In this document: one piece after another, positions 210 through 53,404 of the stretch
Layout of the letters: each line of letters starts with the position of its first letter
Numbering within the stretch: the stretch's first letter is position 1
DNA from: a virus
DNA length: 64,000 bases
Strand: one strand, 5' to 3'
IMG/VR virus record: IMGVR_UViG_3300029957_000006
Span: 60,455-124,454 of that record
Notes under the pieces: model-generated
Databases searched by the model: none
Seen by the model: the letters and a program-made list of their open reading frames with translations, nothing else
What the model was told of the DNA's origin: nothing
Program-made: the position numbers and the translations under genes

Positions 210-1871
210 TTATTGTTTTGCTGGTGCATACTCAATCAACAATGCTTGTTTAGTTGACATGATTTCAGCACTTGCTGGATAATTGTGATTTTCTGTTGTT
301 CCAAGACTCAAAGGCATACTTGCCATTTGAGATTTAATATTTGCTTTGATAATCAAGAAGTCATCATCTTGTCCTTCACCAAATGGTTTATAAATGTTGG
401 TACCATCGAAATAAGTAACCATTGCATCTTCACCTGATTCATGTTCAAAACAAATGGTTTTCTTAGCTCCCAATGCTTCTTTACTTCTGAGCAATTTGAA
501 AGGACCTGGTAATGTTCCTTTACCAATTGTTTCGCTGAATTTCACAACTGGACGATCTTCAGAACCAACAGATGATAAAGCATATTTTGCTGATAAGTTA
601 TCACGTTTCAAATTATTACGCAACCCACCACCTTGTCCGAATAATCCCCAAGTGTAGAATGCATATCCTTTTGCAATGAGTGCATCGATTTCTTCAAGAA
701 TATCTTCGCAAGATTTTCCATCACCGTCCAAGAAGTGAAATAATGTACCACATTTCCAAGAACCAGTCTTGGTTGTCATTTCTGTGAACAGACCATTTGC
801 AACTGAAAGATCGCAAATTTCAATGATTTGATCAAGTGTTGTATATCCTTCTTTTGAAGAATCAGGACGAGCAACAACTACTTTACCATTACCTTCTTTG
901 AGACTTCTCAAAGCTAGTGGCAATAACATATTTTTTACGGAGTTTTTAGCATCATAACAATCATCAACCATTGATACAATTTCATGGTTCTTACATGAGT
1001 TATAGATCGCTTCGTAACAATCATTTTCTTTTGTATATGATTGTACGTTTCTGTGAGCAAGAGCATTTACACTTGAGAAGATGCCAATTGCTTCACCAGA
1101 ATTTTTCCATGCTTGGTAAGCACCAGAAAACGTATCTGTACCACCAAAGGTGTATAAGTGAACCATTCCAAGTTCTTCTGATTCTTCAAGTGTCATACCA
1201 GCTCTGTCACCAAAGTCAGTAATCGTAATGCTGGCCCAGAAATTAAGCATTTCTTCTGACATATCTGGATCAACTTTAAGAATGCGTTCTTTGATACGCA
1301 ATAAGAAGTGTTCATCTTGTGTAACACGTTCAGTAGTACTCCAAGTTTGGAGAATTTTAGATTCAAACCAAGCACCCAACACACCAAGTCCATCAACATC
1401 AGAGATGATTTCAATAGCTGGTTCATTTGGATAAATGACGCTTCCTTCACGCACAGCACGAATTTTAATTGGGGGACGGCCACCGAATTCATCAACAACT
1501 CTGCGCCAGATTTCTTCTGGGAATTCATATTCTTTGAATCCTTCCATTGTAACCTTAGCATGAGCTAGGAAACGGATTGTTTCATCGATCTCAGCGTGTG
1601 TGATTGGTTCGTAGAATAATTTTTCAAGAATACGTTGGAGACCAATAAAGATGATACGATTGTCAGCTTTACTGTAAATATGAGGATTAATCGTATTGAG
1701 ATTTTTTCTGAATGTTACATAATAAACCGATTTTTCTTTAGCCTCTGGGCTTTCGAATTTATTAGAACCAATGGTATAAGCATCACCAAGCAATAGACGT
1801 GGTGTTTTATAAACTTTACGTTTTGGCAATACAACCGTTTTAACTTGTTCTGTTGTTGAGACTTCGTTCAT
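210..1871 (-). CDS. nampT: Nicotinamide phosphoribosyltransferase
   Basis: Makes NMN from nicotinamide and PRPP, the first step of a two-step route back to NAD+. The 553-residue protein is a little longer than the roughly 490 of the animal and bacterial family. Family landmarks include TDFGDRAG (about 215-222), the HLYTFGGTDT stretch, VDDCYDA, the PRPP-handling VVARPDSS (about 335) and GLFGQGGGLRNNLKRD near 415-430. The partner NMN adenylyltransferase lies 2.5 kb downstream in transcript terms upstream at 4393-5349 on the same strand. Together they form the pair known in phages as the NAD+ reconstitution pathway 2 (NARP2), which rebuilds NAD+ destroyed by host immune NADases. Function as enzyme is well supported; the anti-defence role is inference. 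Confidence 0.93.
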   Translation of the reverse strand: MNEVSTTEQVKTVVLPKRKVYKTPRLLLGDAYTIGSNKFESPEAKEKSVYYVTFRKNLNTINPHIYSKADNRIIFIGLQRILEKLFYEPITHAEIDETIRFLAHAKVTMEGFKEYEFPEEIWRRVVDEFGGRPPIKIRAVREGSVIYPNEPAIEIISDVDGLGVLGAWFESKILQTWSTTERVTQDEHFLLRIKERILKVDPDMSEEMLNFWASITITDFGDRAGMTLEESEELGMVHLYTFGGTDTFSGAYQAWKNSGEAIGIFSSVNALAHRNVQSYTKENDCYEAIYNSCKNHEIVSMVDDCYDAKNSVKNMLLPLALRSLKEGNGKVVVARPDSSKEGYTTLDQIIEICDLSVANGLFTEMTTKTGSWKCGTLFHFLDGDGKSCEDILEEIDALIAKGYAFYTWGLFGQGGGLRNNLKRDNLSAKYALSSVGSEDRPVVKFSETIGKGTLPGPFKLLRSKEALGAKKTICFEHESGEDAMVTYFDGTNIYKPFGEGQDDDFLIIKANIKSQMASMPLSLGTTENHNYPASAEIMSTKQALLIEYAPAKQ

Positions 1872-12192: not shown

Positions 12193-13320
12193 TCATAATA
12201 CTTCATGGATATGACCACCGCCTATTACATCCGATGGGTTATTTGGGTCGTAAAAGACCGTTGATTGGCCAGCTGTTATTGTTCGAACTTGGTGAGCAAA
12301 ATCCACTCGCACCATATCATTGCCTAAGCAAGTTAAGGTAGCTAGTGTTGTCTTACCACGATATCTTACATTAGCAAGGACTTCCATTCCATCCAATGCA
12401 TCATAATCAACCTTGATAGTATTTATCTTCTTGACAATCATGTGTTGTCTCATAAGGTCCTTTTCAAGTCCTAGAGTCACTTCATTTGTCTTTGGGTTGA
12501 TATCCGTTACATAAAATGGTTCAGTGCTAGGAAGATCACCAACACCCAATCCACGTCTTTGTCCAACAGTGAAATATGGGAATCCATCATGAGTTCCAAT
12601 TATCTTACCATCCGTATCAATAAAATTACCCTTGTTGATTTCTCTCTTTCTAGAAAGAAATGCTCGGTAGTTATTATCTGGGATGAAACAGATTTCGTAG
12701 CTTTCTCCCTTCTTGGATAATGCTTCATAACCTCTATCAGCAGCCATCTTTCTTATGTCAGTCTTTTCATAACCTCCAACTGGAAAGATGGTTCTTGCAA
12801 GAACTTCTTGAGTAAGTCCCCACAATACATAAGATTGATCCTTTGTTACATCAACACCACTAGACAACATGTAACGACCATTTTCATTTCTGATAATAGC
12901 ATAGTGTCCTGTTGCGATATAATCACAATTCAATTGATCAGCAATCTTTAATAATGCACCCCACTTGATGTGAGTATTACATAGGATACATGGATTAGGT
13001 GTTCTACCTTCCATATATTCATCAATGAAATTGTTGATAACAGAATCATTGAAGCTGTTACGGATATCATAGATTGTATGTGGGATATCATTCTTAACAC
13101 AAATTTCTCTTGCATCATTAATATCATCCAATGAGCAACATCCTGTACTCTTGTTGTGTGCAATGTCAACACCAGAACTAGCATAATCCCATGTCTTCAT
13201 GGTGATCCCAATTACGTCAACTTGATCTTCTTTGAGTAAGACAGCTGATATAGTAGAATCAATACCTCCACTCATAGCACATAACACCCTCTTTCCTTTT
13301 AAATGACTATATACACCCAT
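12193..13320 (-). CDS. mnmA: tRNA-specific 2-thiouridylase MnmA
   Basis: 375 residues, full family length. The PP-loop SGGIDS is at about 16-21; the catalytic cysteines sit in PNPCILCN (about 110) and ESYEICFIPD (about 205); FPYFTVGQRRGLGVG and the C-terminal beta-barrel are also present. The enzyme thiolates U34 of tRNA-Glu, -Gln and -Lys in the cytoplasm using sulfur relayed from the host. This phage has several tRNA-Glu(TTC) genes, a natural substrate, so it may modify its own tRNAs or protect host ones from anticodon nucleases. Confidence 0.93.
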   Translation of the reverse strand: MGVYSHLKGKRVLCAMSGGIDSTISAVLLKEDQVDVIGITMKTWDYASSGVDIAHNKSTGCCSLDDINDAREICVKNDIPHTIYDIRNSFNDSVINNFIDEYMEGRTPNPCILCNTHIKWGALLKIADQLNCDYIATGHYAIIRNENGRYMLSSGVDVTKDQSYVLWGLTQEVLARTIFPVGGYEKTDIRKMAADRGYEALSKKGESYEICFIPDNNYRAFLSRKREINKGNFIDTDGKIIGTHDGFPYFTVGQRRGLGVGDLPSTEPFYVTDINPKTNEVTLGLEKDLMRQHMIVKKINTIKVDYDALDGMEVLANVRYRGKTTLATLTCLGNDMVRVDFAHQVRTITAGQSTVFYDPNNPSDVIGGGHIHEVL

Positions 13321-13958: not shown

Positions 13959-14927
13959 TTAATTCAACATTGTTTTATTACTTAATAGTTTCTTCATTAA
14001 ATGTCTTGCATTACAATGCATTGACCAACCACTATATGCTGAAAATGATCTTATCTTTCTTCGTTTATACATCATTCTAGCAAAGCTCTTTTTGATTGAT
14101 TTTCTAAGCAATACATGAGTATGAAAGAATACATAACCAACAAAATCTATTCCTCTGATTTCAACCATAAAGACTTGATAGTTGTCTTTTATAGTCAATT
14201 TTAATTTGCTTCCAAGATACTCTCTCATTTCAGCTAACAAAGCATGCAAATAGGCTTTACTACCAGATAATATGACAATATCATCAGCATATCTAAAACA
14301 ATATTTTACACCTTTAACCTCTTTCAACCAATGATCAAAATAAGTTAGATATAAATTAGCAAAGTATTGACTTAAATAATTACCAATTGGAATACCATCA
14401 GCACTATCAATAATCTCATCTAACAACCATAACAAATCTTTATCCTTGATTTTTCGTCTAATGATTTGTTTTAATATCTCATGATCAATACTTGGATAGA
14501 ATTGTTTGATATCAATCTTCAGACAATAAGTTGTATTAGGAACATCCTTGAGTGCTTTTTTAAGGGCATTAGCTGCCCCATGAATGCCTCTTCCTTTAAT
14601 ACAGCTATAAGTATTGGAAGTAAACAAAGATGTGAAGATAGGTTCTAATTTGTTCATTATTGCATGATGAACAATCCTATCTGGATAATAAGGTAAGCTG
14701 GAAATTATTCGTTCCTTACCTTCGAAGATTTTAAACGTTTTATATGTTGAAGTTCTAAAAGTTTTATTTAATAGTGCTTCATTTAATTTTAAAATATTTA
14801 AATCTTTTTCTTTGTCATGTAAAACAACATCATATCTATTACGTTTACTCTTCCTAGCTTTTAAATCAGCCAGTTCCAAGTTTTCAATATCACAAATGTC
14901 ATTGTAAAGATTTCCTACTCTCTTCAT
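13959..14927 (-). CDS. DGR reverse transcriptase
   Basis: 322 residues. Reverse transcriptase blocks in order: RIISSLPYYPDRIVHHAI, CLKIDIKQFYPSIDH (first catalytic Asp), GIPIGNYLSQYFANLYL, and YCFRYADDIVIL (YADD catalytic box), then GIDFVGYVFFHTHVLLRKS thumb. The IGNYLSQ segment has the SQ pair that marks diversity-generating retroelement enzymes in place of SP in other reverse transcriptases. The enzyme copies the template RNA with errors at adenines and the cDNA replaces variable repeats. No Avd accessory protein is visible nearby. Confidence 0.92.
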   Translation of the reverse strand: MKRVGNLYNDICDIENLELADLKARKSKRNRYDVVLHDKEKDLNILKLNEALLNKTFRTSTYKTFKIFEGKERIISSLPYYPDRIVHHAIMNKLEPIFTSLFTSNTYSCIKGRGIHGAANALKKALKDVPNTTYCLKIDIKQFYPSIDHEILKQIIRRKIKDKDLLWLLDEIIDSADGIPIGNYLSQYFANLYLTYFDHWLKEVKGVKYCFRYADDIVILSGSKAYLHALLAEMREYLGSKLKLTIKDNYQVFMVEIRGIDFVGYVFFHTHVLLRKSIKKSFARMMYKRRKIRSFSAYSGWSMHCNARHLMKKLLSNKTMLN

Positions 14928-30689: not shown

Positions 30690-30722
30690 GTAAAAAAAAA
30701 AGGTTGACTTCGGCCAACCTTT
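30690..30722 (-). terminator. Attenuator terminator of tRNA operon 1
   Basis: On the minus strand AAGGTTGGC, a CGAA tetraloop and GTCAACCTT form nine base pairs, followed by ten T residues. It lies 28 bases after the leader ORF stop and before all genes of operon 1. The 5' arm GTTGGCC can instead pair with GGTCAAC inside the leader ORF. Confidence 0.88.
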
Positions 30723-30749
30723 CTTATCAAATTAATTATAACGTTTTCG

Positions 30750-30839
30750 TTAACTTTTGACAATAGTTGACCTTCCTTGGCTTTTATCGGCCTCGGCTGC
30801 AAAAAATGCAAAATCAAATATGTTGTTAACTGTTTTCAT
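30750..30839 (-). CDS. Leader peptide of tRNA operon 1
   Basis: 29 residues, ATG 30839 to TAA 30750. After MKTV comes the core NNIFDFAFFAAEAD (codons 5-18), then a tail. Thirteen of these 14 residues are Asn, Phe, Asp, Ala or Glu, the set of tRNAs found downstream in the operon (Phe, Asn, Glu, Asp, Ala). Codons are AAC x2, TTT x4, GAT x2, GCA/GCC x4 and GAG. The GGTCAAC in codons 22-25 can pair with the 5' arm of the terminator. The peptide itself probably has no function; its translation senses charged tRNAs. Confidence 0.8.
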   Translation of the reverse strand: MKTVNNIFDFAFFAAEADKSQGRSTIVKS

Positions 30840-30902: not shown

Positions 30903-30933
30903 CAAAGGTACTAACTATTTTATTAAAAAGCAA
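30903..30933 (-). promoter_or_regulatory. Promoter of tRNA operon 1
   Basis: TACCTTTG 30903-30910 and TTG 30931-30933 on the minus strand. Gives a leader of about 60 bases before the leader ORF, and would drive the operon to about 27172 if the terminator is read through. Confidence 0.8.
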
Positions 30934-33453: not shown

Positions 33454-33473
33454 ATTACAAATATACATAAAAA

Positions 33474-33503
33474 AAGCCGAACAATCAAGTTCAGCTTTTA
33501 GAT
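33474..33503 (-). terminator. Intrinsic terminator after the HNH gene
   Basis: AGCTGAAC/GTTCGGCT hairpin with a TTGATT loop followed by a run of seven T on the minus strand. It ends tRNA operon 2 after the HNH gene and overlaps the promoter of the next gene. Confidence 0.75.
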
Positions 33504-33509
33504 AAAAAT

Positions 33510-33947
33510 TTAGGTAGTTTTCTTCTTTCTGAAAGTTGGAGTTTGGCTATGACAATTAGGGCAAAGAATTCTAAGGTTTTCTAATCTATTGTCATTACTA
33601 TCACCATTGATATGATCCAATTCAAGTGTCATTGGTTTACCATTCCACTCACCAGTATTACCACAACTTAAACATTTATTCTCTAATAATCCAGTAAATA
33701 TTAATCGTCTTTTTAGATGAGGTGAATCAAATGTTACTTTATTAGCTAAGATATCCTCCATCTTAACCTTACTCTTAAGTATTCCCTTACCAGACATATT
33801 CCCAACATAAATAATATCCATTTTTTTTAAGTAGATATTAAGTGTATCTTGTTTACATCCAAGTTCTTTTGATATGAAAGATTTAGGTTTATTTTCTGAA
33901 ATCCAAATTAAAATTTCGTCTTTTCGTTTAATTATATCTTTTCTCAT
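33510..33947 (-). CDS. HNH endonuclease
   Basis: 145 residues. N-terminal helix-turn-helix (FISKELGCKQDTLNIYLKKM), then CLSCGNTGEWNGKPMTLELDHINGDSND and NRLENLRILCPNCHSQ, a complete zinc-bound HNH of the LELDHINGDNxDNRxENLR type. Likely a homing endonuclease placed at the end of tRNA operon 2, next to tRNA-Leu(AAG). Confidence 0.85.
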   Translation of the reverse strand: MRKDIIKRKDEILIWISENKPKSFISKELGCKQDTLNIYLKKMDIIYVGNMSGKGILKSKVKMEDILANKVTFDSPHLKRRLIFTGLLENKCLSCGNTGEWNGKPMTLELDHINGDSNDNRLENLRILCPNCHSQTPTFRKKKTT

Positions 33948-34003
33948 ATATTAAATATATGGTAGACATGTGAAAAGTACACAATACGTGTTAAAACATT
34001 TTG

Positions 34004-34077
34004 TAGCCCTCGTGAGATTCGAACTCACACTGGATGGCTTCTTAGACCATTGCCTCTACCAATTGGGCTAGAGGGCC
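34004..34077 (-). tRNA. tRNA with anticodon AAG (Leu CTT)
   Basis: 74 bases. Acceptor GGCCCTC/GAGGGCT, anticodon stem ATGGT/GCCAT with loop CTAAGAA, T-arm GTGAG TTCGAAT CTCAC. The AAG triplet reads CTT (Leu), which occurs in leader 2, but the variable arm is short, unlike bacterial Leu tRNAs. Last tRNA of operon 2. Confidence 0.7.
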
Positions 34078-34083
34078 AAGTTC

Positions 34084-34160
34084 AAGATGGTTGTATGGAA
34101 TTGAACCACTGATTTATTTTTGAGATAAATTTTTAACCTGTTACTTTGCTGTAACCATCT
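34084..34160 (-). tRNA. tRNA-Leu(CAA)-like, aberrant
   Basis: 77 bases. Acceptor AGATGGT/ACCATCT and anticodon stem ATTTAT/ATAAAT with loop CTCAAAA (anticodon CAA) are good, but the D region forms a GTTAC/GTAAC hairpin and the T-stem has extra bases. Possibly non-functional. Part of tRNA operon 2. Confidence 0.55.
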
Positions 34161-34164
34161 TTTG

Positions 34165-34246
34165 TGAGAGTGGTGGGACTCGAACCCACAAGCCTTTCGG
34201 CCTCCGTTTCTAAGACGGAGCTGTATGCCAATTCCAGCACACTCCC
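34165..34246 (-). tRNA. tRNA-Leu(TAG)
   Basis: 82 bases. Acceptor GGGAGTG/CACTCTC, anticodon stem TCCGT/ACGGA with loop CTTAGAA, long variable arm GGCCGAAAGGCTT, T-arm GTGGG/CCCAC. Canonical class II tRNA. Part of operon 2. Confidence 0.87.
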
Positions 34247-34403
34247 ATAAATACTAATAGCTGAATGTATCCCAGTTTACCATTGACTTACTTTGACCAA
34301 TCCCAATCTTAGTTGTTGTTGGTTTTAAGAGCTTGGACTTATTTCATTGCCAAGATAAACACGCAAATATTTCAATTTACGTAGTAAGCACTATTAATAT
34401 TTG

Positions 34404-34485
34404 TAGCCTAGAACGGACTCGAACCGTTACGTCTTGCGACACCAGATTTTGAGTCTGGCGTGTCTACCAATTTCACCACAAGGCC
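34404..34485 (-). tRNA. tRNA-Leu(CAA)
   Basis: 82 bases. Acceptor GGCCTTG/CTAGGCT with one mismatch, anticodon stem CAGA/TCTG with loop CTCAAAA, long variable arm GTCGCAAGAC, T-arm AACGG/CCGTT. Part of operon 2. The gap 34247-34403 holds no gene I can support. Confidence 0.85.
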
Positions 34486-34500
34486 ATTGTGATCATGTTG

Positions 34501-34576
34501 TAGCCCAAGTGGGATTCGAACCCACAGTTGTACAGATTTTAAGTCTGTTGTGTCTAACCAGTTGCACCACTGGGCC
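34501..34576 (-). tRNA. tRNA-Leu(TAA) with short variable arm
   Basis: 76 bases. Acceptor GGCCCAG/TTGGGCT, anticodon stem ACAGA/TCTGT with loop CTTAAAA, T-arm GTGGG TTCGAAT CCCAC. Anticodon TAA is Leu, but the variable loop is only about six bases. Part of operon 2. Confidence 0.78.
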
Positions 34577-34582
34577 ATCTAG

Positions 34583-34664
34583 TAGGGAAAAACGGACTCG
34601 AACCGTTACGCCTTACGGCAAGGGATTTTAAGTCCCTCGTGTCTACCAATTTCACCATATCCCC
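34583..34664 (-). tRNA. tRNA-Leu(TAA)
   Basis: 82 bases. Acceptor GGGGATA/TTTCCCT with one mismatch, anticodon stem AGGGA/TCCCT with loop CTTAAAA, long variable arm TGCCGTAAGGCGT, T-arm AACGG/CCGTT. Canonical class II tRNA. Part of operon 2. Confidence 0.86.
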
Positions 34665-34680
34665 ATAAGAACATATGTTC

Positions 34681-34857
34681 TTATTCATTTTCTTTCCATT
34701 GAGAATTTCGATATCCTTTCCAAGAGAGGCTGTGATTATCTCTATTTCTATTACAACCTCTGTTAGGTGGACAAATCGGGCAACCCATGTTTTGTCTTAA
34801 AGCCTTGTTATACACTTGGCTATTCATTGTGTGTTTCAGTGTCTTTTTTTCTCTCAT
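34681..34857 (-). CDS. Small Cys-rich phage protein
   Basis: 58 residues from ATG 34857; an internal ATG at 34827 would give 48. The body is MGCPICPPNRGCNRNRDN then SLSWKGYRNSQWKENE. The GCPxCPPxxGCNxN...SWKxxRxxQW pattern is one I recognise from small unnamed proteins of Bacteroidetes phages; three Cys suggest metal binding. It sits between tRNA-Leu(TAA) and 34913-35167 in operon 2. Confidence 0.65.
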   Translation of the reverse strand: MREKKTLKHTMNSQVYNKALRQNMGCPICPPNRGCNRNRDNHSLSWKGYRNSQWKENE

Positions 34858-34912
34858 GTTTCACTGTGCTTTATTATGCACTAGGTGAAACCATCCGCTT
34901 TTAAATTCATCA

Positions 34913-35167
34913 TTATACTTTTTCTTCTTTAATGGTTGATGACTTGCAACATTCAAATAATTTAGCTAATTCTGGTTTAATTTTACCTTTCAATCCATTT
35001 AAAAGACCAGAATCTTCCCAAGCTTTTGTGACTTTTTTGATCTTATCTTCTTCTATTTTTTTCTTAAGATCACTTAAACAAGCTGAGTGAGCAAAGTGTG
35101 TTTTATCAACAACAATTGCCATGCAACTAATTGGTTTTTCGCAGTATGAGCATGTAAAGTAAATCAT
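34913..35167 (-). CDS. Small zinc-binding protein
   Basis: 84 residues from ATG 35167 (MIYFTCSYCEKPISCMAIVV). A Cys pair TCSYC and a THFAHSACLSDLKKK stretch make a treble-clef-like zinc site; the rest is helical. The longer open frame upstream runs through tRNA-Val and is rejected. Part of operon 2. Confidence 0.55.
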   Translation of the reverse strand: MIYFTCSYCEKPISCMAIVVDKTHFAHSACLSDLKKKIEEDKIKKVTKAWEDSGLLNGLKGKIKPELAKLFECCKSSTIKEEKV

Positions 35168-35190
35168 GTTATTTTGTATTAAATTTTTAG

Positions 35191-35261
35191 TAGCCCCTGA
35201 CGGAATCGAACCATCTACGCTTGCATGTAAGGCAAGTACACATCCATTGTGAATAAGGGCC
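35191..35261 (-). tRNA. tRNA-Val(TAC)
   Basis: 71 bases. Acceptor GGCCCTT/AGGGGCT, D-arm CACA/TGTG, anticodon stem CTTGC/GCAAG with loop CTTACAT, T-arm GATGG TTCGATT CCGTC. Part of operon 2. Confidence 0.82.
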
Positions 35262-35266
35262 ATTTG

Positions 35267-35339
35267 TTGGACTTGAGAATTTTGAAATCTCGACTTCTAC
35301 CATGTCATAGTAGCACTCTAGCCTCTGAGTTAAAGTCCA
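35267..35339 (-). tRNA. tRNA-Val(GAC)
   Basis: 73 bases. Acceptor TGGACTT/AAGTCCA, D-arm ACTC/GAGT, anticodon stem CTACT/GGTAG with loop ATGACAT, anticodon GAC, T-loop TTCAAAA. Reads GTC, a codon used in leader 2. Part of operon 2. Confidence 0.8.
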
Positions 35340-35351
35340 ATTTTTGAGTAG

Positions 35352-35479
35352 AGCAAAAGGTAGGGATCGAACCTACATTACAGTCAACCAGACATCCTGA
35401 TGAGAACCATCAGGTAGAGGATTGATGACTATTCCTCCGTTTAAAAAGCTAGCGTGTATACCACTTTCACCACCTCTGC
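35352..35479 (-). tRNA. Leu-type tRNA-like element with long insertion, 128 bases
   Basis: Acceptor GCAGAGG/CTTTTGC pairs fully, D-arm is of the tRNA-Leu type (GTGAAAGTGGTATACAC) and the T-arm GTAGG TTCGATC CCTAC is perfect. Between them lie about 80 bases holding two strong hairpins, GAGGA/TCCTC and CCTGATG/CATCAGG, instead of a normal anticodon and variable arm. An intron or a structured tRNA mimic is possible. Confidence 0.5.
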
Positions 35480-35503
35480 ACTACTCAATATTTTAAAGAA
35501 CTG

Positions 35504-35578
35504 TGGGAATGACAGGGTTCGAACCTGTGACCCTCTGCTTGTAAGGCAGATGCTCTGAACCAGCTGAGCTACACTCCC
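35504..35578 (-). tRNA. tRNA-Val(TAC), second copy
   Basis: 75 bases, fully canonical. Acceptor GGGAGTG/CATTCCC, D-arm GCTC/GAGC, anticodon stem TCTGC/GCAGA with loop CTTACAA, T-arm ACAGG/CCTGT, discriminator A. Part of operon 2. Confidence 0.9.
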
Positions 35579-35587
35579 ATGATAGGA

Positions 35588-35980
35588 TTAACCTACCTTT
35601 ATAAATTCACCAGCATCAATCGCTTTTTGAATCCATCTGATTAATTCTGATCCTTTTACTTCGGCACCAAATGGTGTTGATCCTAAATCAGAAGAAAGCT
35701 TATCGAATTTAATTTCTTCAAAATCATCCATTCCATCAACAGGTTCTTTTATTTTTGTAACTAATTTTCCTTCAAATTTATAATGAAAATTAGTAGCATC
35801 ATAAATACCAGATGTTACAACATCATCCAATTTAACTTTATCAAGTGTTGAAATAGGGAACTGAAATTTACCTTCATTAATTTCAACAGTATAATATAAA
35901 TTACCAGATTGGTAATGGCTAAATACTGCAAAGTTTTTTGACTTGTATAAGTCTTTTTTTATTTCATTCTTGTCAACCAT
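35588..35980 (-). CDS. Hypothetical protein
   Basis: 130 residues from ATG 35980 (MVDKNEIKKDLYKSKNFAVF). Beta-rich with ISTLDKVKLDDVVTSGIYD and a C-terminal ELIRWIQKAIDAGEF helix. No family recognised. Part of operon 2, ten bases before tRNA-Val. Confidence 0.5.
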   Translation of the reverse strand: MVDKNEIKKDLYKSKNFAVFSHYQSGNLYYTVEINEGKFQFPISTLDKVKLDDVVTSGIYDATNFHYKFEGKLVTKIKEPVDGMDDFEEIKFDKLSSDLGSTPFGAEVKGSELIRWIQKAIDAGEFIKVG

Positions 35981-36093
35981 CTTAAACAATTTTTTCTTTT
36001 GTATATTTTTTTTGCTCTGATTTTTATTTCTTTTTCTTTTAAAGCATTTTCAAATAATATTGCTTCAATTTCTTTTTTCACTTGATTAGGCAT
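35959..36093 (-). CDS. Small basic helical protein
   Basis: 44 residues from ATG 36093 (MPNQVKKEIEAILFENALKE, then KEIKIRAKKIYKRKNCLRWL). This start overlaps the previous gene's stop by eight bases, the usual coupling here. No family recognised. Confidence 0.45.
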   Translation of the reverse strand: MPNQVKKEIEAILFENALKEKEIKIRAKKIYKRKNCLRWLTRMK

Positions 36094-36409
36094 ATCCGTT
36101 TTCTCGTTTCCATTTTTCATGCATTTGATGAATGGTATCACCCACACTTGCACCTTGTCCTTCGACTATATTATCAAATCCATTTTCTTTTGTGATCATG
36201 GATTCTTCTGCTTTGATGGCACCTTTGAATTTCATTCCATAAGCACCTTCCATTTGTTTGGTTGCTGGATTTACATCACCCCAACCAACTCTCCAATTTC
36301 TTGGTTCAATATATTCAACGAAATATCTTTTACCAGTTTCTGGATAAAAATAAATCTCTCGTCCTGTTTCATCCCTATCAATAAGGAAATCTTTTTTAAT
36401 GTCTGTCAT
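36086..36409 (-). CDS. Hypothetical protein
   Basis: 107 residues from ATG 36409 (MTDIKKDFLIDRDETGREIY). Compact domain with RYFVEYIEPRNWRVGWGDVN. No family recognised. The longer frame upstream is a read-through of tRNA-Cys. First protein gene of operon 2. Confidence 0.5.
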   Translation of the reverse strand: MTDIKKDFLIDRDETGREIYFYPETGKRYFVEYIEPRNWRVGWGDVNPATKQMEGAYGMKFKGAIKAEESMITKENGFDNIVEGQGASVGDTIHQMHEKWKRENGYA

Positions 36410-36436
36410 AAAACTATTTTTACTCTTTGTTATTTT

Positions 36437-36509
36437 GAGTTCCCAACTGGATTCGAACCAATGTAGGAGGATTTGCAATCCTCAGCCTAGCCACTCGACC
36501 ATGGAAACT
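36437..36509 (-). tRNA. tRNA-Cys(GCA)
   Basis: 73 bases. Acceptor AGTTTCC/GGGAACT, anticodon stem GAGGA/TCCTC with loop TTGCAAA, T-arm ATTGG TTCGAAT CCAGT. Discriminator reads C, unusual for Cys (normally T). Part of operon 2. Confidence 0.82.
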
Positions 36510-36524
36510 TATTTTCATTACTTG

Positions 36525-36599
36525 AGCACATGATAGGATTCGAACCTATGGTTGTACAGTTTTGCAGACTGCTGCTTTGGACCACTCAGCCACATGTGC
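36525..36599 (-). tRNA. tRNA-Cys(GCA), second copy
   Basis: 75 bases. Acceptor GCACATG/CATGTGC, anticodon stem GCAGT/ACTGT with loop CTGCAAA, T-arm ATAGG/CCTAT, discriminator T as expected. First tRNA after the attenuator of operon 2. Confidence 0.87.
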
Positions 36600-36602
36600 A
36601 TT

Positions 36603-36633
36603 AAAAAAGCCCACCTTGTTGGAGATGGGCTTT
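36603..36633 (-). terminator. Attenuator terminator of tRNA operon 2
   Basis: On the minus strand AAAGCCCATC, loop TCCAACAA, GGTGGGCTTT form ten base pairs (two G-T), then six T. It lies 20 bases after the leader ORF stop and five bases before tRNA-Cys. The 5' arm GCCCATC is fully complementary to GATGGGC inside the leader ORF. Confidence 0.88.
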
Positions 36634-36652
36634 CATGTTTAAGTATCATAAC

Positions 36653-36727
36653 TTAACAAGCATAGCCCATCCTGTCTAGCACTAGACATAACAATAAAAG
36701 GACTGATGTGTTGTTAATGTTTTTCAT
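36653..36727 (-). CDS. Leader peptide of tRNA operon 2
   Basis: 24 residues, ATG 36727 to TAA 36653. The core SVLLLLCLVLD (codons 8-18) and the final Cys contain six Leu, two Val and two Cys. Codons are CTT, TTA, TTG, TTA, CTA, CTA for Leu, GTC and GTG for Val, TGT for Cys. Downstream the operon has tRNA-Leu with anticodons AAG, TAA, CAA and TAG, tRNA-Val GAC and TAC, and tRNA-Cys GCA: each leader codon type has a matching tRNA. GATGGGC in codons 19-21 can pair with the terminator 5' arm. The peptide is a sensor, not expected to have its own function. Confidence 0.8.
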   Translation of the reverse strand: MKNINNTSVLLLLCLVLDRMGYAC

Positions 36728-36771
36728 TTTGTTTTTCTTATCGAATTTCTTCGTTGTTTAATAAATATAAG

Positions 36772-36802
36772 CAAAGGTACTAAAAGTTTTGGTAATTGTC
36801 AA
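36772..36802 (-). promoter_or_regulatory. Promoter of tRNA operon 2
   Basis: TACCTTTG 36772-36779 and TTG 36800-36802 with a 20-base spacer. Start about 40 bases before the leader ORF. Drives the Cys/Val/Leu tRNA operon down to the terminator at 33474. Confidence 0.8.
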
Positions 36803-45372: not shown

Positions 45373-46638
45373 TTAGTTCAGTTCCAACAGATGACTGATG
45401 GTACATTGTTTTGTATTGTAAAGCACATATTCATTATTGATAAGATCATAACCACCCTTAGCGAATACACTGTCATATCCTTCTCTTTTTAATTGACTTT
45501 CACAAAGCGAATAACAACTTGATGTATGATGAAGGATTTCTTTTTGATTTCCTAAATGAGAATCATATAGTGCTATATAACCTTTGTTTGAACTTCCTTT
45601 GGTCCAATATGAACCTTTTAATGATGAATAACCACGTGCCTTTTGTGCTTTATCAGCAAGGTAAATTCCATCACCAAACATACTGCCAGTATGAACTGCT
45701 CCAGCTGGTCGAATTAGTATTCCTGATTGAAGTAAGTTGAACCAATTTTCATTTCTTGAACCATGAAAATAAAGTCGTTTCTTTTTAACTTTTGCATTTG
45801 TGACAAACTTATCAAATGTATCCTTTGTCTTCGGATTATTAACTCTGAAGATACGTTTAACTTGATCTTTACTAGAACCCAATAACTTATAAATAAGTTC
45901 AAGCATCTTAGGGTCTTTTTCAACTTCAATACTCACACCCATTTGATCAAGAATGGTTGATCCAGCATTATTAGTTTTATTAACTAGTGTTGCCTTTTGT
46001 TTCAAAAGCTTTACCTGACCAGCCATTGTATCTAACGTGTCCTGTTCATTTCCAATTAATTCTTTTGCTATTTTAAGGGTATTAGAATTAGTGATTGGCT
46101 CAAATAGATGATCACGTACATCTTTCATCTTTCTAGGGATGGTGATGTAAAGTTTCATTAACAAATCATTCAATATTTTCAAATCAACACCAACCTTCAA
46201 AATTTTATTGATTGAATCGATAACATCTTGAGCTGTATTAACTTGTTGTTCAGATACTGCTTCTTGTGTTACCTTATAGTTTTGTTGAATAGATTTATTT
46301 GCAAAATTCATCAAATCTTCAATCAAAGCTCTTACATCCTTGTCTTGAATATCAACAGTCTTGCTACCATTGGCATTGTTGACTGGTTCAACCATCAAAT
46401 CAGTTACATCAGTATAACCTTTAGTCTTACTAAGCTTCTGTTTGTAAACTGAATCCCATTTGGATTTATCCTTGTATTCAGTTGTTAGTTCTTTTCCAAC
46501 ACGCCCATAATCACAACGAATTCTTCCATCTGGAAGTTCTTCCATTATGTAAACCTTATTACTATTGCCTGTCTTACCATTATCAACACTGACATGAATA
46601 AGCTTAGCATATCTTAAACCGTTTTCTTTGAGGATCAT
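45373..46638 (-). CDS. WGR-domain poly(ADP-ribose) polymerase-like protein
   Basis: 421 residues with the architecture of a eukaryotic-type PARP. WGR-like domain at the N-terminus (KVYIMEELPDGRIRCDYGRV), a helical regulatory-like middle (DLLMKLYITIPRKMKDVRDH), and a catalytic domain: LYFHGSRNENWFNLLQSGI (His of the H-Y-E triad), MFGDGIYLADKAQKARGYS (Tyr), and C-terminal INNEYVLYNTKQ (Glu in NEYV position). NAD+ is the donor; the acceptor may be protein or DNA/RNA ends. Unusual in a phage. Works against or alongside the NAD+ rebuilding genes. Confidence 0.82.
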   Translation of the reverse strand: MILKENGLRYAKLIHVSVDNGKTGNSNKVYIMEELPDGRIRCDYGRVGKELTTEYKDKSKWDSVYKQKLSKTKGYTDVTDLMVEPVNNANGSKTVDIQDKDVRALIEDLMNFANKSIQQNYKVTQEAVSEQQVNTAQDVIDSINKILKVGVDLKILNDLLMKLYITIPRKMKDVRDHLFEPITNSNTLKIAKELIGNEQDTLDTMAGQVKLLKQKATLVNKTNNAGSTILDQMGVSIEVEKDPKMLELIYKLLGSSKDQVKRIFRVNNPKTKDTFDKFVTNAKVKKKRLYFHGSRNENWFNLLQSGILIRPAGAVHTGSMFGDGIYLADKAQKARGYSSLKGSYWTKGSSNKGYIALYDSHLGNQKEILHHTSSCYSLCESQLKREGYDSVFAKGGYDLINNEYVLYNTKQCTISHLLELN

Positions 46639-47529: not shown

Positions 47530-48416
47530 TATTAAATTCCTATATGGAGTTATAAAATAAATAATCAAAATGGTGTCAAAACGCCATAGTAATAGTTGTG
47601 ATTCCCTTTTAGAAGAATAAAAAAAACGTCACAATAAGCAGAAAGATCAAGGTGGGTGTTGTGATTCCTTTATGGAATTATAGAATAATTAATTCATCTG
47701 TGATAAAAGCAGATGTATTACCATTGTGATTCCAATATGGATTAATATAATTACTAACTAGTCTTAATTGTCAAATTCAAATACTAGCATTGTGATTCCC
47801 TACGGAATAATATAATTACTAACAAATTACCCTTAGATTCATCAAATCGATTGTTGTGATTCCCCTACAGAACGATATAATTACCAACTTTTATTAATCT
47901 AGGAACTTGGATTAATCTGTTGTGATTCCTCTACGGAATGATATAATTATCAACTTTAACAACTGGAACTACAATTACAATTGGGTTGTGATTCCCCTAT
48001 GGAATGATATAATTATCAACTACTGTTAAGAACTAATTCAGAACTCTGAAGTTGTGATTCCCTTACGGAATAATATAATTACCAACTAGATTAGAGTGAG
48101 TGTCAAGGTAATCCTTGTTGTGATTCCCTTACGGAATAATATAATTACCAACTAAACCAATTGATGTATGGGAGGCTTATTAGTTGTGATTCCCTTACGG
48201 AATAATATAATTACCAACCTTTTTGTTTTAAACGTTGAATCGATTTGTGTTGTGATTCCCTTACGGAATAATATAATTACCAACTATTGGTTTCCATTTG
48301 TTGAGTGTTGCTAAGTTGTGATTCCCTTACGGAATAATATAATTACCAACAGCGTTTTGAAATAATTGCTTAAGCCTTTTGTTGTGATTCCCTTACGGAA
48401 TAATATAATTACCAAC
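47530..48416 (-). CRISPR. CRISPR array, about 13 repeats with decaying trailer end
   Basis: Repeats of 36 bases beginning GTTGTGATTCCC and ending ATAATTACCAAC on the plus strand, at 48381, 48315, 48249, 48183, 48117, 48051, 47985, 47919, 47853, 47789, 47723, 47658 and 47595 (starts), with a very degenerate fourteenth near 47530. Spacers are 30 bases (two or three of 29). The six nearest the cas genes are identical; those further away accumulate changes, so the leader is at the 48417-48494 side and transcription is on the minus strand. The ATTCC/GGAAT hairpin is kept even in decayed repeats. Spacer targets cannot be named without a search. Confidence 0.95.
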
Positions 48417-48494
48417 CTATCTCAAGTTAAATATTTGATATTAATTGATTTAGGTTATTTTATTAAAAATAATATGTCAAAGAACTTGTATAAA

Positions 48495-49199
48495 TTAGTC
48501 TAGTTTATACAATTTATGATTTTCAGTTTTATATATTGTACCAAATCCAGAACCAGTTGATTGACCTATGCCAATATTATATAAAAGCTCGGCAACCTTC
48601 TTGTTTGTATAAATACTAATATGACACGAATTAGCAGAATTAATTACGTTTTTAACTAAAATTCGTTTAATTTTATGACTATCATTAATAGGTATTTTAA
48701 TTTCAAAATCTGTTAAATCTAAACTAGTATCGATCTTAGTTAATTTATTAATTAAATAATGTTTTATTTGATTCTCAAAATCAGTATCATTAAGGGTAAT
48801 AAAAGAATAGTTTTTCTTATCTATATATTTTTTTATTATAAATGGTGATAATGTAGCAAAATGATTCCATCCATTATTAAAATATTCATTAATATGATCA
48901 ACACCACAAAAAGTCATACCAGCCATTAATGATGGATTATTGATGACACCAATTAATATATTATTAATGAATTCATTATTTTTAGACGAAACAATAATAT
49001 ATCCACCATTATCAAAAGATAAATGTTTAGATTCTAAATTTAATTTACCACCATATAAATGAGAAATATTATAATCATTTTTAGCATCATGATAAATATT
49101 ATTTCTACCTAAACATTTATGAATATAAGAATTCAACATTGCTTGATTGCTTATTGGAATTTCACTAGTATTTTTTGAAAAATTTATTTTGATTCTCAT
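48495..49199 (-). CDS. cas6: Cas6-family crRNA endonuclease
   Basis: 234 residues. MRIKINFSKN at the start, MLNSYIHKCLGRN, FTFC-like MAGMTFCGVDHINEYF in the middle and the glycine-rich loop LYNIGIGQSTGSGFGTIYK at the C-terminus, the hallmark of Cas6. Catalytic His candidates are in the first ferredoxin fold (SYIHK). It cuts the array transcript within the repeat hairpin to make crRNAs. Last gene of the cas operon, 79 bases before the array. Confidence 0.85.
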   Translation of the reverse strand: MRIKINFSKNTSEIPISNQAMLNSYIHKCLGRNNIYHDAKNDYNISHLYGGKLNLESKHLSFDNGGYIIVSSKNNEFINNILIGVINNPSLMAGMTFCGVDHINEYFNNGWNHFATLSPFIIKKYIDKKNYSFITLNDTDFENQIKHYLINKLTKIDTSLDLTDFEIKIPINDSHKIKRILVKNVINSANSCHISIYTNKKVAELLYNIGIGQSTGSGFGTIYKTENHKLYKLD

Positions 49200-49200
49200 A

Positions 49201-50043
49201 TTATTGTTTTTCTAAACTTATTTCACTAACTCTTGTAAACCCTTCTGTTGTAATTATATTACCAGATTTAACACCTTTAATATAGATAAAACCATTATCA
49301 AGTATAGTAGCACAACCTTTATTGGTTTTAATTTTCTCTATATCTTTATCAGATACTGGAACAATTATTTGACCACTAAGTCTTATAATTTTATCTAAAC
49401 CTGTTAAAACTGTTAATTGTGTTCTATTGTTCATATTAATACTTGTATTAGTTGTTGTTTGCCCATAAATACTATCAAAAACGGGTGTTTTACCTTTTGA
49501 TTTCAACATTTTAAATAATTCATCAATACGCTTATCTGGTCTTGATAGAATCAATTCTTTAACCTTATTAAAAGATGTGATATTAATATCTATTTTATAA
49601 ACACTTGTTAATATATCAATGAACTCTTTATATAGTTCATCACCTAATAAATTATTTATACGTTTCCAATAAACAAATGATTGAGTACTCCAAGAATTTC
49701 CGATTGATTTTTTAGTTTGTATTGTTTCACTTTGAAAATTACCCTTACTATCCTTATAAGAATCAATTCTTAAATACGATTCTAAAGCTTTATTAAAGAG
49801 ATATGGTATGTTATTATATACTGTATCTCGATTAATTGGCTTAGGTCGTTCACCAAACAATACATGAAGCATATTTGATATTTGGTGAACAGTTATGGGT
49901 TCAATGAATTCAGTTTCAGTTTTACGGTCTCTCCTTCCACACATGTCAAACATTTTATCTTTGGTATTTCTATGTTTTCTGAATAACCCTGCATTTCTAA
50001 ATTCTAATACTAGAAATTTAGTCATTTGATTCGGTTGTGACAT
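49201..50043 (-). CDS. Putative Cas5-like subunit
   Basis: 280 residues between the Cas7 candidate and Cas6. N-terminal strand KFLVLEFRNAGLFRKHRNTK could be the first RRM strand of Cas5; a glycine-containing TTTNTSINMNNRTQLTVLTG region and IYIKGVKSGNIITTEGF end the protein. The call relies mainly on position in a cas3-cas7-cas5-cas6 order and on size; sequence likeness is weak. It starts inside the 3' end of the previous gene (26-base overlap). Confidence 0.5.
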   Translation of the reverse strand: MSQPNQMTKFLVLEFRNAGLFRKHRNTKDKMFDMCGRRDRKTETEFIEPITVHQISNMLHVLFGERPKPINRDTVYNNIPYLFNKALESYLRIDSYKDSKGNFQSETIQTKKSIGNSWSTQSFVYWKRINNLLGDELYKEFIDILTSVYKIDINITSFNKVKELILSRPDKRIDELFKMLKSKGKTPVFDSIYGQTTTNTSINMNNRTQLTVLTGLDKIIRLSGQIIVPVSDKDIEKIKTNKGCATILDNGFIYIKGVKSGNIITTEGFTRVSEISLEKQ

Positions 50044-51106
50044 CAGTTTCGGTTTTAGATGATTTCGATTTCTTAATAGCTTCTTTCTTATCTGCCTTCT
50101 TTTTCTTACTTTCTAATTTACGAGACTCGTAATCAGCTTCAATCATCGCTCTTTTTTCCTTCGCCATTTCAGTATTTTCTTGAATATAAAAATCTTCAGT
50201 TTCAAATACGATGTTTGTTAAATCATTCCTATTAGAAATTCTAATCCAACCATCTTCATTAACAAAAGTATCCTCAAACACATCATAAACTATTTTATAT
50301 TCTAATTCTGATATTTCAACATAAGACCCCTTTCTTTTGATATTGAATTTCAATAGACGTTCAAATAATTCTCTAACAAGTATTTGAATATTATCATTAC
50401 TCATTTTAAATCCATATTCAGCTATTTCAACAAGACTATTTTTAATTTGATAGTAACCCAATTCACTGTCAAAGGATGGCATCTTAGCTTTTAAAAATTG
50501 TTTGTAGATATTAAACATATCAGGATTAAAAGAAAATCTATCAAAAATTTGATCACAACTAATAAATTGTAATTGCATCAAATCAATATTACCAATTGTT
50601 GCATATTCAATTTCACCGACAACTTCTTTTTTATAAAATGAATTATCTGTTTTCTCAGCATCGGTATTTTTAAAACCACTTCTTGAAAAGGTTTCAATTG
50701 AGCTTACAGCATTACATGTCTGTTCTGCATCTGTAATACATAAAACACCTTTTCGTTTGAGGGTTTCTGTTTCGTTAGCGAATAAATAGCCTCTGATAAT
50801 TGATGCTGGGGAAGCAATAAATGAATATAATAAATGTTCGTTATTAATAACGTTTGGTGATTGAAATAGAACATCTTCTTTGAATATATCGTGTCTAATA
50901 CAATCAGATGAAATACTAATTTTATATGATGTTTTATCACCATCTCTATAAAATTTCTTCTTAGCATAAGATGTATTATCATGCATTGTTTTCATATTTA
51001 CAAGATTTGTACCATTAAACATGAATTTCTGATCAGAACTATCAAAGTTAACAACTCCATTACCTTTTAATTTCATTCTGAATAATATGTTTTTAGCTTT
51101 TTTCAT
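50018..51106 (-). CDS. Putative Cas7-like backbone subunit
   Basis: 362 residues. The LLYSFIASPASIIRGYLF segment followed by ETLKRKGVLCITDAEQTC resembles the RAMP strand and thumb-like loop of Cas7 proteins, and AVSSIETFSRSGFKNTD the central part. A highly charged Lys/Glu tail (ESKKKKADKKEAIKKSKSSK) is added. Position after cas3 and before the Cas5 candidate supports Cas7, the crRNA-binding filament. Subtype cannot be assigned. Confidence 0.6.
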   Translation of the reverse strand: MKKAKNILFRMKLKGNGVVNFDSSDQKFMFNGTNLVNMKTMHDNTSYAKKKFYRDGDKTSYKISISSDCIRHDIFKEDVLFQSPNVINNEHLLYSFIASPASIIRGYLFANETETLKRKGVLCITDAEQTCNAVSSIETFSRSGFKNTDAEKTDNSFYKKEVVGEIEYATIGNIDLMQLQFISCDQIFDRFSFNPDMFNIYKQFLKAKMPSFDSELGYYQIKNSLVEIAEYGFKMSNDNIQILVRELFERLLKFNIKRKGSYVEISELEYKIVYDVFEDTFVNEDGWIRISNRNDLTNIVFETEDFYIQENTEMAKEKRAMIEADYESRKLESKKKKADKKEAIKKSKSSKTETDVTTESND

Positions 51107-51142
51107 TTTTTTGTATTTAAATTGTTATTTGTTTTAAATATA

Positions 51143-53404
51143 TTAATAATTTTTAAGTGTTGATAATCTTTCTGGTGAAATCTCCCCATAAATTGGATGA
51201 TATATTTTATCAAATCTAATATATGGTGTATTTGATTTTTTACCTAATTTTCTGATAATATCAAGCGTTGCATATTTTTTATTGGAGATAATTTCATTAT
51301 AATCGAAACGATCATCATTGGTGTCTCTGAGAATTTTCATTGTACCAATCATTCTTTTAAATGTTCCTTCATCTTCATGAAATTCTTCAGTAAAATTGTT
51401 TTCCCTAACACTGATACTAAATGGATTAGTAAATTTATCGCTATTGAAATACTTACAGATGACAAATACCTCAAAACTACTTGAACGTAATTTATTACCA
51501 CCAGCTGTCTTATTATCGCTTTTTCTAATATTAAAAAATTTAACTGGATAAATGAATTGAAGAGACTCTGAACTTGTATTATATTCATCACTTAAATATG
51601 CAAATAAGGTTTTTTCGTGATTCATCTCGAAATCATTGTAAATTATATATATTTCATCAAGGGTTAATTTCTGGTTATTAAATTTGGAAATATATTCAAA
51701 CCACGAATTGGATAAATTATTTGTGTACAACAAATCACGCATACTAGTTTCAGCTTTATTGACTAGTCTGACAATATTGATGGTAGATTCACCTAAATAA
51801 TCACCCCATCTGTCACATCTACCGATACGTTGTAATGAGCTTTGAGGAGATAACACAGATTCATATAAATTATTAAACGAAACATCTAAACTAGCTTGTA
51901 TAATATGTGTACCAACTACATTTGGTTTTATTATATTACGATCACTTTGTTTACCGTAAAAACGATATAATTGATTCACATTAAAATCTTTATCCAAGTC
52001 TTCAAATTTACTATGAAGAAGTAATCCAGCATCTAATGTACTTTTATGTATTTGGGCAGTACCAATGGAATTTAAGACAATTAAATTATTATCATCAATT
52101 TTGATCAATTTGATCTCAGATTCAGTTTTTAACAAATATTTCTTATTATGAGGTGCTGAATAATGTTTACCAATACTTGGCAAAATTAATGTTTTCTGTA
52201 ATTGAGAATCCCATAAACGATACATGTGAGTTCCAGTTGCTGATAATAATAACGTATTGCTATTGGTAAGAGTATTTCTTGTTTTCATTATATTAATAAA
52301 ACAAGCAAATAAAGCTGTGTCACCAACTAATTCATGATATTCATCAAATACAACATCTGCATTGATAATGGTATATAGACGACTACCATGTCTATTATCC
52401 ACACTAGGTGATAAATAATTATCAATATTTGTAACAATAATGTCTGATGAGAAATCACTTTCGAATAATGGGTTACAAGCTTTAACTTCGCCTCCAGTAT
52501 ATAATTCAACTGATAGATAATCAATACCAAAATTATCTATTTCTTCTAGAATTGATTTGTAAACTGATTCAGCAACTATATTTCTAGGACAAACCCAGAT
52601 TAATTTTCTATTAGTCTTAAAATTCCATAATAATCCAAGAATTGTTTTACCAAATCCAGCTGGTGCATTAATTTGCGTTGTTCTTTCAACATTAAGAACA
52701 ATGTTTTCTTGTTGATTGAAGCGGTCATTACCATAAAATTTGTGTTTAGTAATATCAATATCACAACATCTTATATTGGCGTTTTTAATCATTTCTTCAA
52801 TTTCAATATCGCTTATATCAAGATTATCAATACTAGATGCTAATCTATCAGCAGATATTAAACAAGTTCTGGTTAACAAACGAAAAGAATTTATTTCATC
52901 TGCTTCATCACCTGTTACATAATATTTAGGTGCTTTTTTAGGTTTATATTCCTTTTCATGAACGTGTAATTCACCAACAATACTAATTAAATAATTTAAC
53001 ATTATTTTAGTATCTGATTCAGATATTTTTACATCAGTGTCATTATAACCACATAATTTATTAGAAATTCCATGATGCCAATATACACTATCAAGAATTA
53101 TAGATAATTGTTTTTTTGGTAAATCTAAATATCTGCTTAAAAATGCCCAACCAACTTCATTATGACGATATTTTAATTTTGCTTCTAAATTATTTTCATC
53201 AATATTTATAATACCTAATTTTTTTTGGAATTGAGAAGTGCATTTCCCAATATCATGTAATAATCCTGATAATCTGATAGTTTCAATTAATTCATCATCT
53301 TTAACCAATAAAGATTGATTTGCTATTTCAACAGCAAATCTTGAAACTAAAAGCGAATGATCAACTAAGGTTATTCCATTAGTTTTTGCTAGTATTTGAC
53401 CCAT
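51143..53404 (-). CDS. cas3: Cas3 HD-nuclease/helicase
   Basis: 753 residues. HD nuclease first: LVDHSLLVSRFAVEIANQ, GLLHDIGKCTSQFQ (HD pair near 50) and YRHNEVGWAFLSRYL, SVYWHHG. Then a superfamily 2 helicase: Walker A NAPAGFGKTILGLLW (about 245), DEYH box VFDEYHELVGD, SAT motif LLSATGTHMYR, HIIQASLDVSFNNLYE and LQRIGRCDRWGD as motifs V and VI. All catalytic motifs are intact, so target DNA shredding is expected. Promoter at 53409-53439. Confidence 0.93.
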   Translation of the reverse strand: MGQILAKTNGITLVDHSLLVSRFAVEIANQSLLVKDDELIETIRLSGLLHDIGKCTSQFQKKLGIINIDENNLEAKLKYRHNEVGWAFLSRYLDLPKKQLSIILDSVYWHHGISNKLCGYNDTDVKISESDTKIMLNYLISIVGELHVHEKEYKPKKAPKYYVTGDEADEINSFRLLTRTCLISADRLASSIDNLDISDIEIEEMIKNANIRCCDIDITKHKFYGNDRFNQQENIVLNVERTTQINAPAGFGKTILGLLWNFKTNRKLIWVCPRNIVAESVYKSILEEIDNFGIDYLSVELYTGGEVKACNPLFESDFSSDIIVTNIDNYLSPSVDNRHGSRLYTIINADVVFDEYHELVGDTALFACFINIMKTRNTLTNSNTLLLSATGTHMYRLWDSQLQKTLILPSIGKHYSAPHNKKYLLKTESEIKLIKIDDNNLIVLNSIGTAQIHKSTLDAGLLLHSKFEDLDKDFNVNQLYRFYGKQSDRNIIKPNVVGTHIIQASLDVSFNNLYESVLSPQSSLQRIGRCDRWGDYLGESTINIVRLVNKAETSMRDLLYTNNLSNSWFEYISKFNNQKLTLDEIYIIYNDFEMNHEKTLFAYLSDEYNTSSESLQFIYPVKFFNIRKSDNKTAGGNKLRSSSFEVFVICKYFNSDKFTNPFSISVRENNFTEEFHEDEGTFKRMIGTMKILRDTNDDRFDYNEIISNKKYATLDIIRKLGKKSNTPYIRFDKIYHPIYGEISPERLSTLKNY

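Follow-up and report, generated by a model that had tools for sequence, protein, structure and literature searches.

Large phages may carry dozens of transfer RNA (tRNA) genes, which could serve to compensate for codon usage, to replace host tRNAs that have been degraded or to evade defences that cleave tRNA. Huge phages are reported to carry as many as 67 tRNAs per genome, and synthetases are listed too (Al-Shayeb et al. 2020, PMC7162821). What does such a virus sense before it makes its tRNAs? The question is raised by an operon of Cys, Val and Leu tRNA genes (operon 2) in a 64,000-nucleotide stretch of DNA, hereafter the window, which covers positions 60455-124454 of the virus record IMGVR_UViG_3300029957_000006 (124,454 bp, itself a fragment). 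Between promoter and tRNA genes lie a short leader open reading frame (ORF) and an intrinsic terminator, and the core of the leader is spelled with the amino acids of the tRNAs downstream. We judge it about 90% probable that this leader, like each of its counterparts described below, is a ribosome-mediated transcription attenuator that would tie a phage tRNA operon to the supply of the charged tRNAs encoded there. The computed basis is the anatomy of the operons, the match between leader and tRNA set, the covariation of the antiterminator (region 2) with the terminator arm, and the recurrence of the arrangement.

A leader that names its tRNAs

The original prediction placed a promoter, a leader of 24 codons, a terminator and an operon of Cys, Val and Leu tRNAs on the minus strand, and all were found at their places (Table 1). 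Leader codons 9-17 are cognate in nine cases out of nine (Val, Leu and Cys only), and every codon can be read by anticodons of the operon. The two Cys and three Val tRNAs were borne out, but ARAGORN, which overlooks some degenerate phage tRNAs, gives five Leu tRNAs (taa, taa, caa, tag, aag) and not the proposed six. An additional Leu-type element matches tRNA just at the Rfam threshold.

The sister operon of the window, operon 1, carries a Phe/Asn/Glu/Asp/Ala tRNA set behind a leader of its own. The promoters at the tRNA operons of the window follow the consensus TTG-N17-22-TAnnTTTG (Bacteroidota type). A degenerate DNA pattern for FDFAxxAAEAD, from the operon-1 leader, matched 14 viral contigs, and the leader stood ahead of tRNAs in every one. 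A third attenuator in the window genome (second BLAST hit, L002) was considered and rejected, because only the promoter matched.

Leaders shift with tRNA sets

Relatives were reached via neighbour genes and the phage glutaminyl-tRNA synthetase. They comprise one near-identical contig, diverged contigs, LR745206 and LR756502 (634,780 and 642,428 bp) and about 40 IMG/VR contigs, and they yielded 76 distinct leader/tRNA-operon pairs once duplicates were removed. The evidence from them is comparative throughout; since orthologous leaders are not independent, within-genome and between-type permutations carry most of the weight.

Across the 76 leaders, 233 of 242 operon tRNA amino acids (96%) are present in the leader core. 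This recall drops to 48% when tRNA sets are permuted globally (maximum 60% in 5000 permutations) and to 54% when they are permuted within genomes (maximum 71%). The fraction of core residues drawn from the operon's own set is 0.50 versus 0.20, a value that none of 20000 within-genome permutations reached. Taken singly, every one of the 20 amino acids is enriched, 1.9- to 28-fold, in leaders with a cognate tRNA downstream (p values naive). The match had been argued to be unlikely by chance; with relatives included it lies far beyond chance, and where the tRNA set shifts the leader shifts with it. That the match runs codon by codon held in part. It is clear for Arg, where the codon box (AGR/CGN) tracks the operon isoacceptor in 22 cases and not in 5, and for Ile (ATA/ATY; 22 matched, 7 not), but it is only modest overall, with 91% of cognate core codons readable by own-operon anticodons against 87% of random synonymous codons (p=0.0005).

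A single phage has up to seven leader-headed operons, every leader being fitted to its own tRNA set. Examples include HKNFSKSHKWF ahead of His/Phe/Trp/Lys tRNAs, SSRSRSS ahead of Arg/Ser and QQQQQ ahead of Gln. The LR phages have operons with tRNA sets quite unlike those of the window: MTTMNLNMTMNLTLNVVNITLCNIRP... precedes Asn/Arg/Leu/Val/Ile/Thr/Met tRNAs, and MKTINVNIAPVNPQPQDQDP... precedes Pro/Asp/Gln tRNAs followed by the synthetase gene. From two further tRNA sets, His/Phe/Trp/Lys-rich and Glu/Tyr/Gly-rich leaders were expected before the leaders of these operons were read; those then read were MTTNSTHKNFSKSHKWFSNQSF..., MRTINKHKHFSKLNKWFSNHRF..., MNTITNIASYESYYEEG... and MNRFTNIETIGYTGYEGAYSE.... 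An automatic scan of the fetched sequence for a tRNA cluster, a terminator and a short ORF revealed a further split into Arg/Ser (MKTTIKNTSSRSRSSKSGEVRLYS), Ile/Gly/Ala, Leu/Met and Gln (MTTSFQQQQQQQINRTD) operons. In the 362-kb phage G004, four leader-headed operons jointly span all 20 amino acids. Their tRNA sets are {Trp Ser His Asn Arg Ile Met}, {Cys Val Leu Met}, {Phe Glu Asp Ala, Gln} and {Pro Gln Tyr Thr Gly Lys}, with the leaders MMTMHIHMISISNWRRNSS..., MNNFVNIVLLNSVLCLLVLE..., MKTVNNIFDFAFEAAEAD... and MNLTFVTYQPKQYTQGGKP... in operon order; the second and third are common to the window phage. The operon-2 leader has 11 more distinct orthologues in related phages.

Most leaders of the relatives are preceded by a promoter of the same form as in the window. 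A blind scan for promoter, short ORF and terminator returned 42 elements, 39 of them directly upstream of tRNAs. The 40th (G002:C1:40388-40800, locus L015; MRTTTTYTGKQYPQGKQKPTG...) is a Pro/Gln/Tyr/Thr/Gly/Lys leader with promoter and terminator. Only an apparent decayed tRNA remnant lies downstream of this orphan, which seems to have outlasted its operon. Among 12 clade genomes, leader-headed operons hold 86% of all tRNAs. In G006, two operons with truncated-looking leaders stand behind near-identical promoter regions, which may be a misassembly.

Such leaders are absent from the tRNA clusters of G016, a phage that has the synthetase but lies beyond the two clades, and the isolate Bacteroides phage DAC19 has three tRNAs and no such leader. 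Against INPHARED, megablast of the operon region found no close relatives, only tRNA matches, and tblastn of the leader peptide matched nothing. The operon-1 core pattern had 8 matches in bacterial genomes, all in stretches of 48-66% GC with no nearby tRNA operon, and these matches therefore give no evidence for leaders outside phages.

Pairing of leader and terminator

The leader had been predicted to be complementary to the terminator 5' arm, and GGATGGGCT:AGCCCATCT can indeed form a 9-bp helix. In operon 2, pairing of the 3' part of the leader with the arm beats 300 of 300 shuffles. Over all leaders, the duplex of region 2 with its own arm averages -10.4 kcal/mol, versus -7.1 kcal/mol for mismatched pairs (permutation p <= 5e-5). 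The covariation check proposed with the prediction also favoured the own arm: among 12 operon-2 orthologues, region 2 pairs at -14.6 kcal/mol with its own arm and at -10.3 kcal/mol with orthologue arms (permutation p <= 5e-5). Examples of such pairs, beside that of the window, are GGATGGGTT/AACCCATCT (L137), GTTCGAGCT/AGCTCGAAC (G004), GTGTCGGGCT/AGTCCGATAC (L136) and GGCTGGG/CCCAGCC (L132). In an alignment of the seven closest operon-2 orthologues the terminator stem covaries (4/500 shuffles), and the helix between region 2 and the arm (2:3) is 94% paired, compared with 27-54% in slid controls.

In silico, the terminator 5' arm is sequestered to 0.74 with a stalled ribosome and to 0.15 with the ribosome at the stop codon. 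Aggregate sequestration exceeds that of dinucleotide shuffles (0.53 vs 0.36), in a test whose single fixed stall position puts leaders with early antiterminators at a disadvantage; the permutation test of covariation is to be preferred. The minimum free energy (MFE) fold of operon 2 contains a hairpin of regions 1 and 2, which suggests a 1:2 protector in this leader. Such a hairpin exceeds shuffles (p<0.05) in 19 of 63 leaders, and the operon 2 leader alone gives p=0.24.

Several results weigh against attenuation by ribosome stalling. The 2:3 helix of the seven orthologues holds one double change, too few to beat a column shuffle. An antiterminator had been claimed for both operons of the window; it stands for operon 2, with its 9-bp helix and covariation, but the operon-1 type has no detectable antiterminator covariation (p=0.63), nor has the Pro/Asp/Gln type (p=0.99). 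The refuting case named with the prediction, a changed tRNA set behind an unchanged leader, is confined to nine of the 242 amino-acid/operon pairs, mostly single extra tRNAs, which have the tRNA without the leader residue. Rare codons are enriched in leaders, but nearly equally so among non-cognate codons (38% vs 31%, p=0.06). They are therefore not readable as tuning, and the idea of rare-codon tuning was dropped.

Alternative explanations

The weak antiterminator signal in some operon types would suit a general attenuation by leader translation, in which ribosome occupancy or initiation rate matters, amino-acid content is a by-product and the terminator is a constitutive dampener. We regard this as very unlikely, as it leaves unexplained both the 96% recall against 48% in permuted sets and the tracking of the isoacceptor by the Arg codon box. 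Slightly less likely still is that the leader ORFs are genes for small functional peptides, for instance hydrophobic membrane peptides such as LLLLCLVL, with the terminator doing no more than insulating the tRNA operon. In favour, the operon-2 leader is hydrophobic and the leaders are conserved ORFs, with pairwise differences in the operon-1 leader core biased to the third codon position (165, versus 71 at the first and 60 at the second). However, QQQQQQ, SSRSRSS and KHKHFSKLNKW leaders share no common chemistry, leader composition tracks the downstream tRNA set operon by operon, and the 3' part of the leader pairs with the terminator arm. Direct sensing of uncharged tRNA by RNA, T-box-like or other, would likewise couple regulation to charging, but it is hardly credible here, given that the leader of about 120 nt is mostly ORF, that a T-box has one specifier codon where these leaders name 1-8 amino acids, and that the Rfam scan matched no T-box in the window and no other regulatory family at the leader, only tRNAs and one DUF805b elsewhere.

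Proposed mechanism

Under ribosome-mediated attenuation, RNA polymerase would initiate at the Bacteroidota promoter and a ribosome would enter the leader behind it. When all cognate charged tRNAs are ample, the ribosome would reach the stop codon and mask region 2, the terminator (3:4) would fold, and transcription would end ahead of the tRNAs. Should any of the cognate charged tRNAs run low (in operon 2, that for Val, Leu or Cys), the ribosome would stall on codons 9-17. Such an early stall would leave region 2 free to capture the terminator 5' arm, and the tRNA operon would be transcribed. The simplest logic would be negative feedback, in which a shortage of cognate charged tRNA yields more of those tRNAs, and the several such operons of one phage would each sense their own amino-acid set.

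We infer the stalling, the direction of the response and the benefit, which would be tRNAs replaced as needed when the host is shut off or its defences cleave tRNAs. Because the leaders are spelled with the amino acids of the downstream tRNAs, it appears that the virus makes replacement tRNAs only once ribosomes are short of them. Host shut-off can leave tRNAs limiting. Phage tRNAs are reported to counter defence systems that cleave tRNA, such as PARIS (PMC12409363). A bolder proposal, to which we give even odds, is a code-wide viral controller of tRNA supply. Its attenuated operons, several per phage, would jointly cover all or nearly all of the 20 amino acids, each coming on only in its own shortage, and would replace, by amino-acid group, host tRNAs lost to shut-off or tRNA-cleaving immunity.

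Table 1. Positions, in window coordinates, of the parts of operons 2 and 1.
Feature	Positions	Strand	Details
Promoter, operon 2	36772-36802	minus	Bacteroidota-type TTGACAATTACCAAAACTTTTAGTACCTTTG, form TTG-N-TAnnTTTG, TTGACA...TACCTTTG; start at 36802
Leader ORF, operon 2	36653-36727	minus	24 codons, MKNINNTSVLLLLCLVLDRMGYAC, stop TAA
Putative region 1	36700-36718	minus	5' half of 1:2 protector hairpin, AUUAACAACACAUCAGUCC; MFE fold
Regulatory codons 9-17	36677-36703	minus	GTC CTT TTA TTG TTA TGT CTA GTG CTA
Region 2, antiterminator	36664-36672	minus	GGATGGGCT, within leader ORF, codons 19-22; 9-bp complement of terminator 5' arm
Intrinsic terminator	36603-36633	minus	AAAGCCCATC...GGTGGGCTTTTTT; stem then T-run
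Terminator 5' arm (region 3)	36631-36623	minus	
Terminator 3' arm (region 4)	36615-36608	minus	
tRNA-Cys(gca)	36524-36599	minus	ARAGORN; Rfam 66.1 bits
tRNA-Cys(gca)	36437-36508	minus	ARAGORN, Rfam
tRNA-Val(tac)	35503-35578	minus	ARAGORN, Rfam
Degenerate Leu-type tRNA-like element	35352-35479	minus	Borderline; Rfam tRNA 29.1 bits, gathering 29; no ARAGORN call
tRNA-Val(gac)	35266-35339	minus	ARAGORN
tRNA-Val(tac)	35190-35261	minus	ARAGORN, Rfam
tRNA-Leu(taa)	34582-34664	minus	ARAGORN, Rfam
tRNA-Leu(taa)	34500-34576	minus	ARAGORN, Rfam
tRNA-Leu(caa)	34403-34485	minus	ARAGORN, Rfam
tRNA-Leu(tag)	34164-34246	minus	ARAGORN, Rfam
tRNA-Leu(aag)	34003-34077	minus	ARAGORN, Rfam
Likely operon-end terminator, operon 2	33472-33499	minus	
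Promoter, operon 1	30903-30933	minus	
Leader, operon 1	30750-30839	minus	MKTVNNIFDFAFFAAEADKSQGRSTIVKS; residues Phe, Asp, Ala, Glu
Leader terminator, operon 1	30696-30725	minus	

Other features of the phage

A MnmA-type tRNA-modifying enzyme (2-thiouridylase family; window 12193-13320) and the glutaminyl-tRNA synthetase gene (G000:35514-37130) suggest a wider control of decoding. Dozens of very regular promoters, mostly on the minus strand, are spread across G000:C1:1-60454 and the window. Towards the left of the record the majority start TTGGTGG or TTGGTAG with TAnnTTTG. The promoters ahead of the tRNA operons differ from these, a hint that there are separate classes of promoter.

A non-coding RNA candidate of about 1.3 kb (window 24531-23180, minus strand) has its own promoter, starts with a tRNA-like fold and ends with tRNA-Phe followed by a tRNA-like element that carries a long insert. 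It contains AACTATAACGGTCCTAAGGTAGCGA, which we take to be a conserved stretch of 23S ribosomal RNA (the I-CeuI site). Blocks of it are kept in the related phages L169, L136 and G001, no Rfam family but tRNA fits it, and the candidate may represent a giant phage RNA of a new kind.

The phage also has an array of clustered regularly interspaced short palindromic repeats (CRISPR; window 47530-53404) with repeats GTTGTGATTCCCTTACGGAATAATATAATTACCAAC at 66-bp spacing. It adjoins Cas6, a Cas7fv-like protein, another protein (49201-50043) and Cas3. Together these make up a compact system, type I-like and with no recognised Cas8. Further genes of the phage encode a NAMPT/NadV-like nicotinamide adenine dinucleotide salvage enzyme (window 210-1871), a PARP-domain ADP-ribosyltransferase (45373-46638) and a stand-alone reverse transcriptase (RVT_1; 13959-14927), the last possibly diversity-generating or retron-like.

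Significance and comparison with known systems

Leaders that name their own tRNA set amount to a written-in statement of what the virus senses, namely a shortage of charged tRNA by amino-acid group, and the reason why phages carry tRNAs thus becomes directly testable with reporter constructs. Ribosome-mediated attenuation, known from biosynthesis and synthetase operons, would be extended to tRNA genes and to viruses, and the many natural leaders with differing codon combinations are a resource for attenuation studies and for sensors of tRNA charging. LR745206 and LR756502, which are uncultured and exceed 634 kb, appear to belong to a known group of huge phages, in which all five genomes of >634 kb are assigned to Bacteroidetes hosts and to the Mahaphage clade; the text of that paper nowhere mentions attenuation (PMC7162821). 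Searches of open-access papers turned up no account of tRNA operons, whether of phages or of bacteria, that are controlled by leader-peptide attenuation.

Like the enterobacterial attenuators (trp, his, leu, ilv, thr, pheST), the phage elements have a promoter, a short leader ORF with many regulatory codons, antiterminator and terminator structures that overlap, and a terminator ahead of the first gene. Unlike them, the phage leaders would control tRNA genes rather than enzymes or a synthetase, and a single leader would be sensitive to 1-8 amino acids; several operons in one virus share out the code, and the arrangement was seen here only in phage contigs. T-box riboswitches likewise let tRNA charging control translation-related genes, whereas the phage leaders have no T-box features or Rfam match, and their sensor appears to be the translating ribosome. 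The proposed mechanism is of a classical kind. What is new, as far as we can tell, is that tRNA genes are its target, that leaders name several amino acids and that the operons divide the code among themselves.

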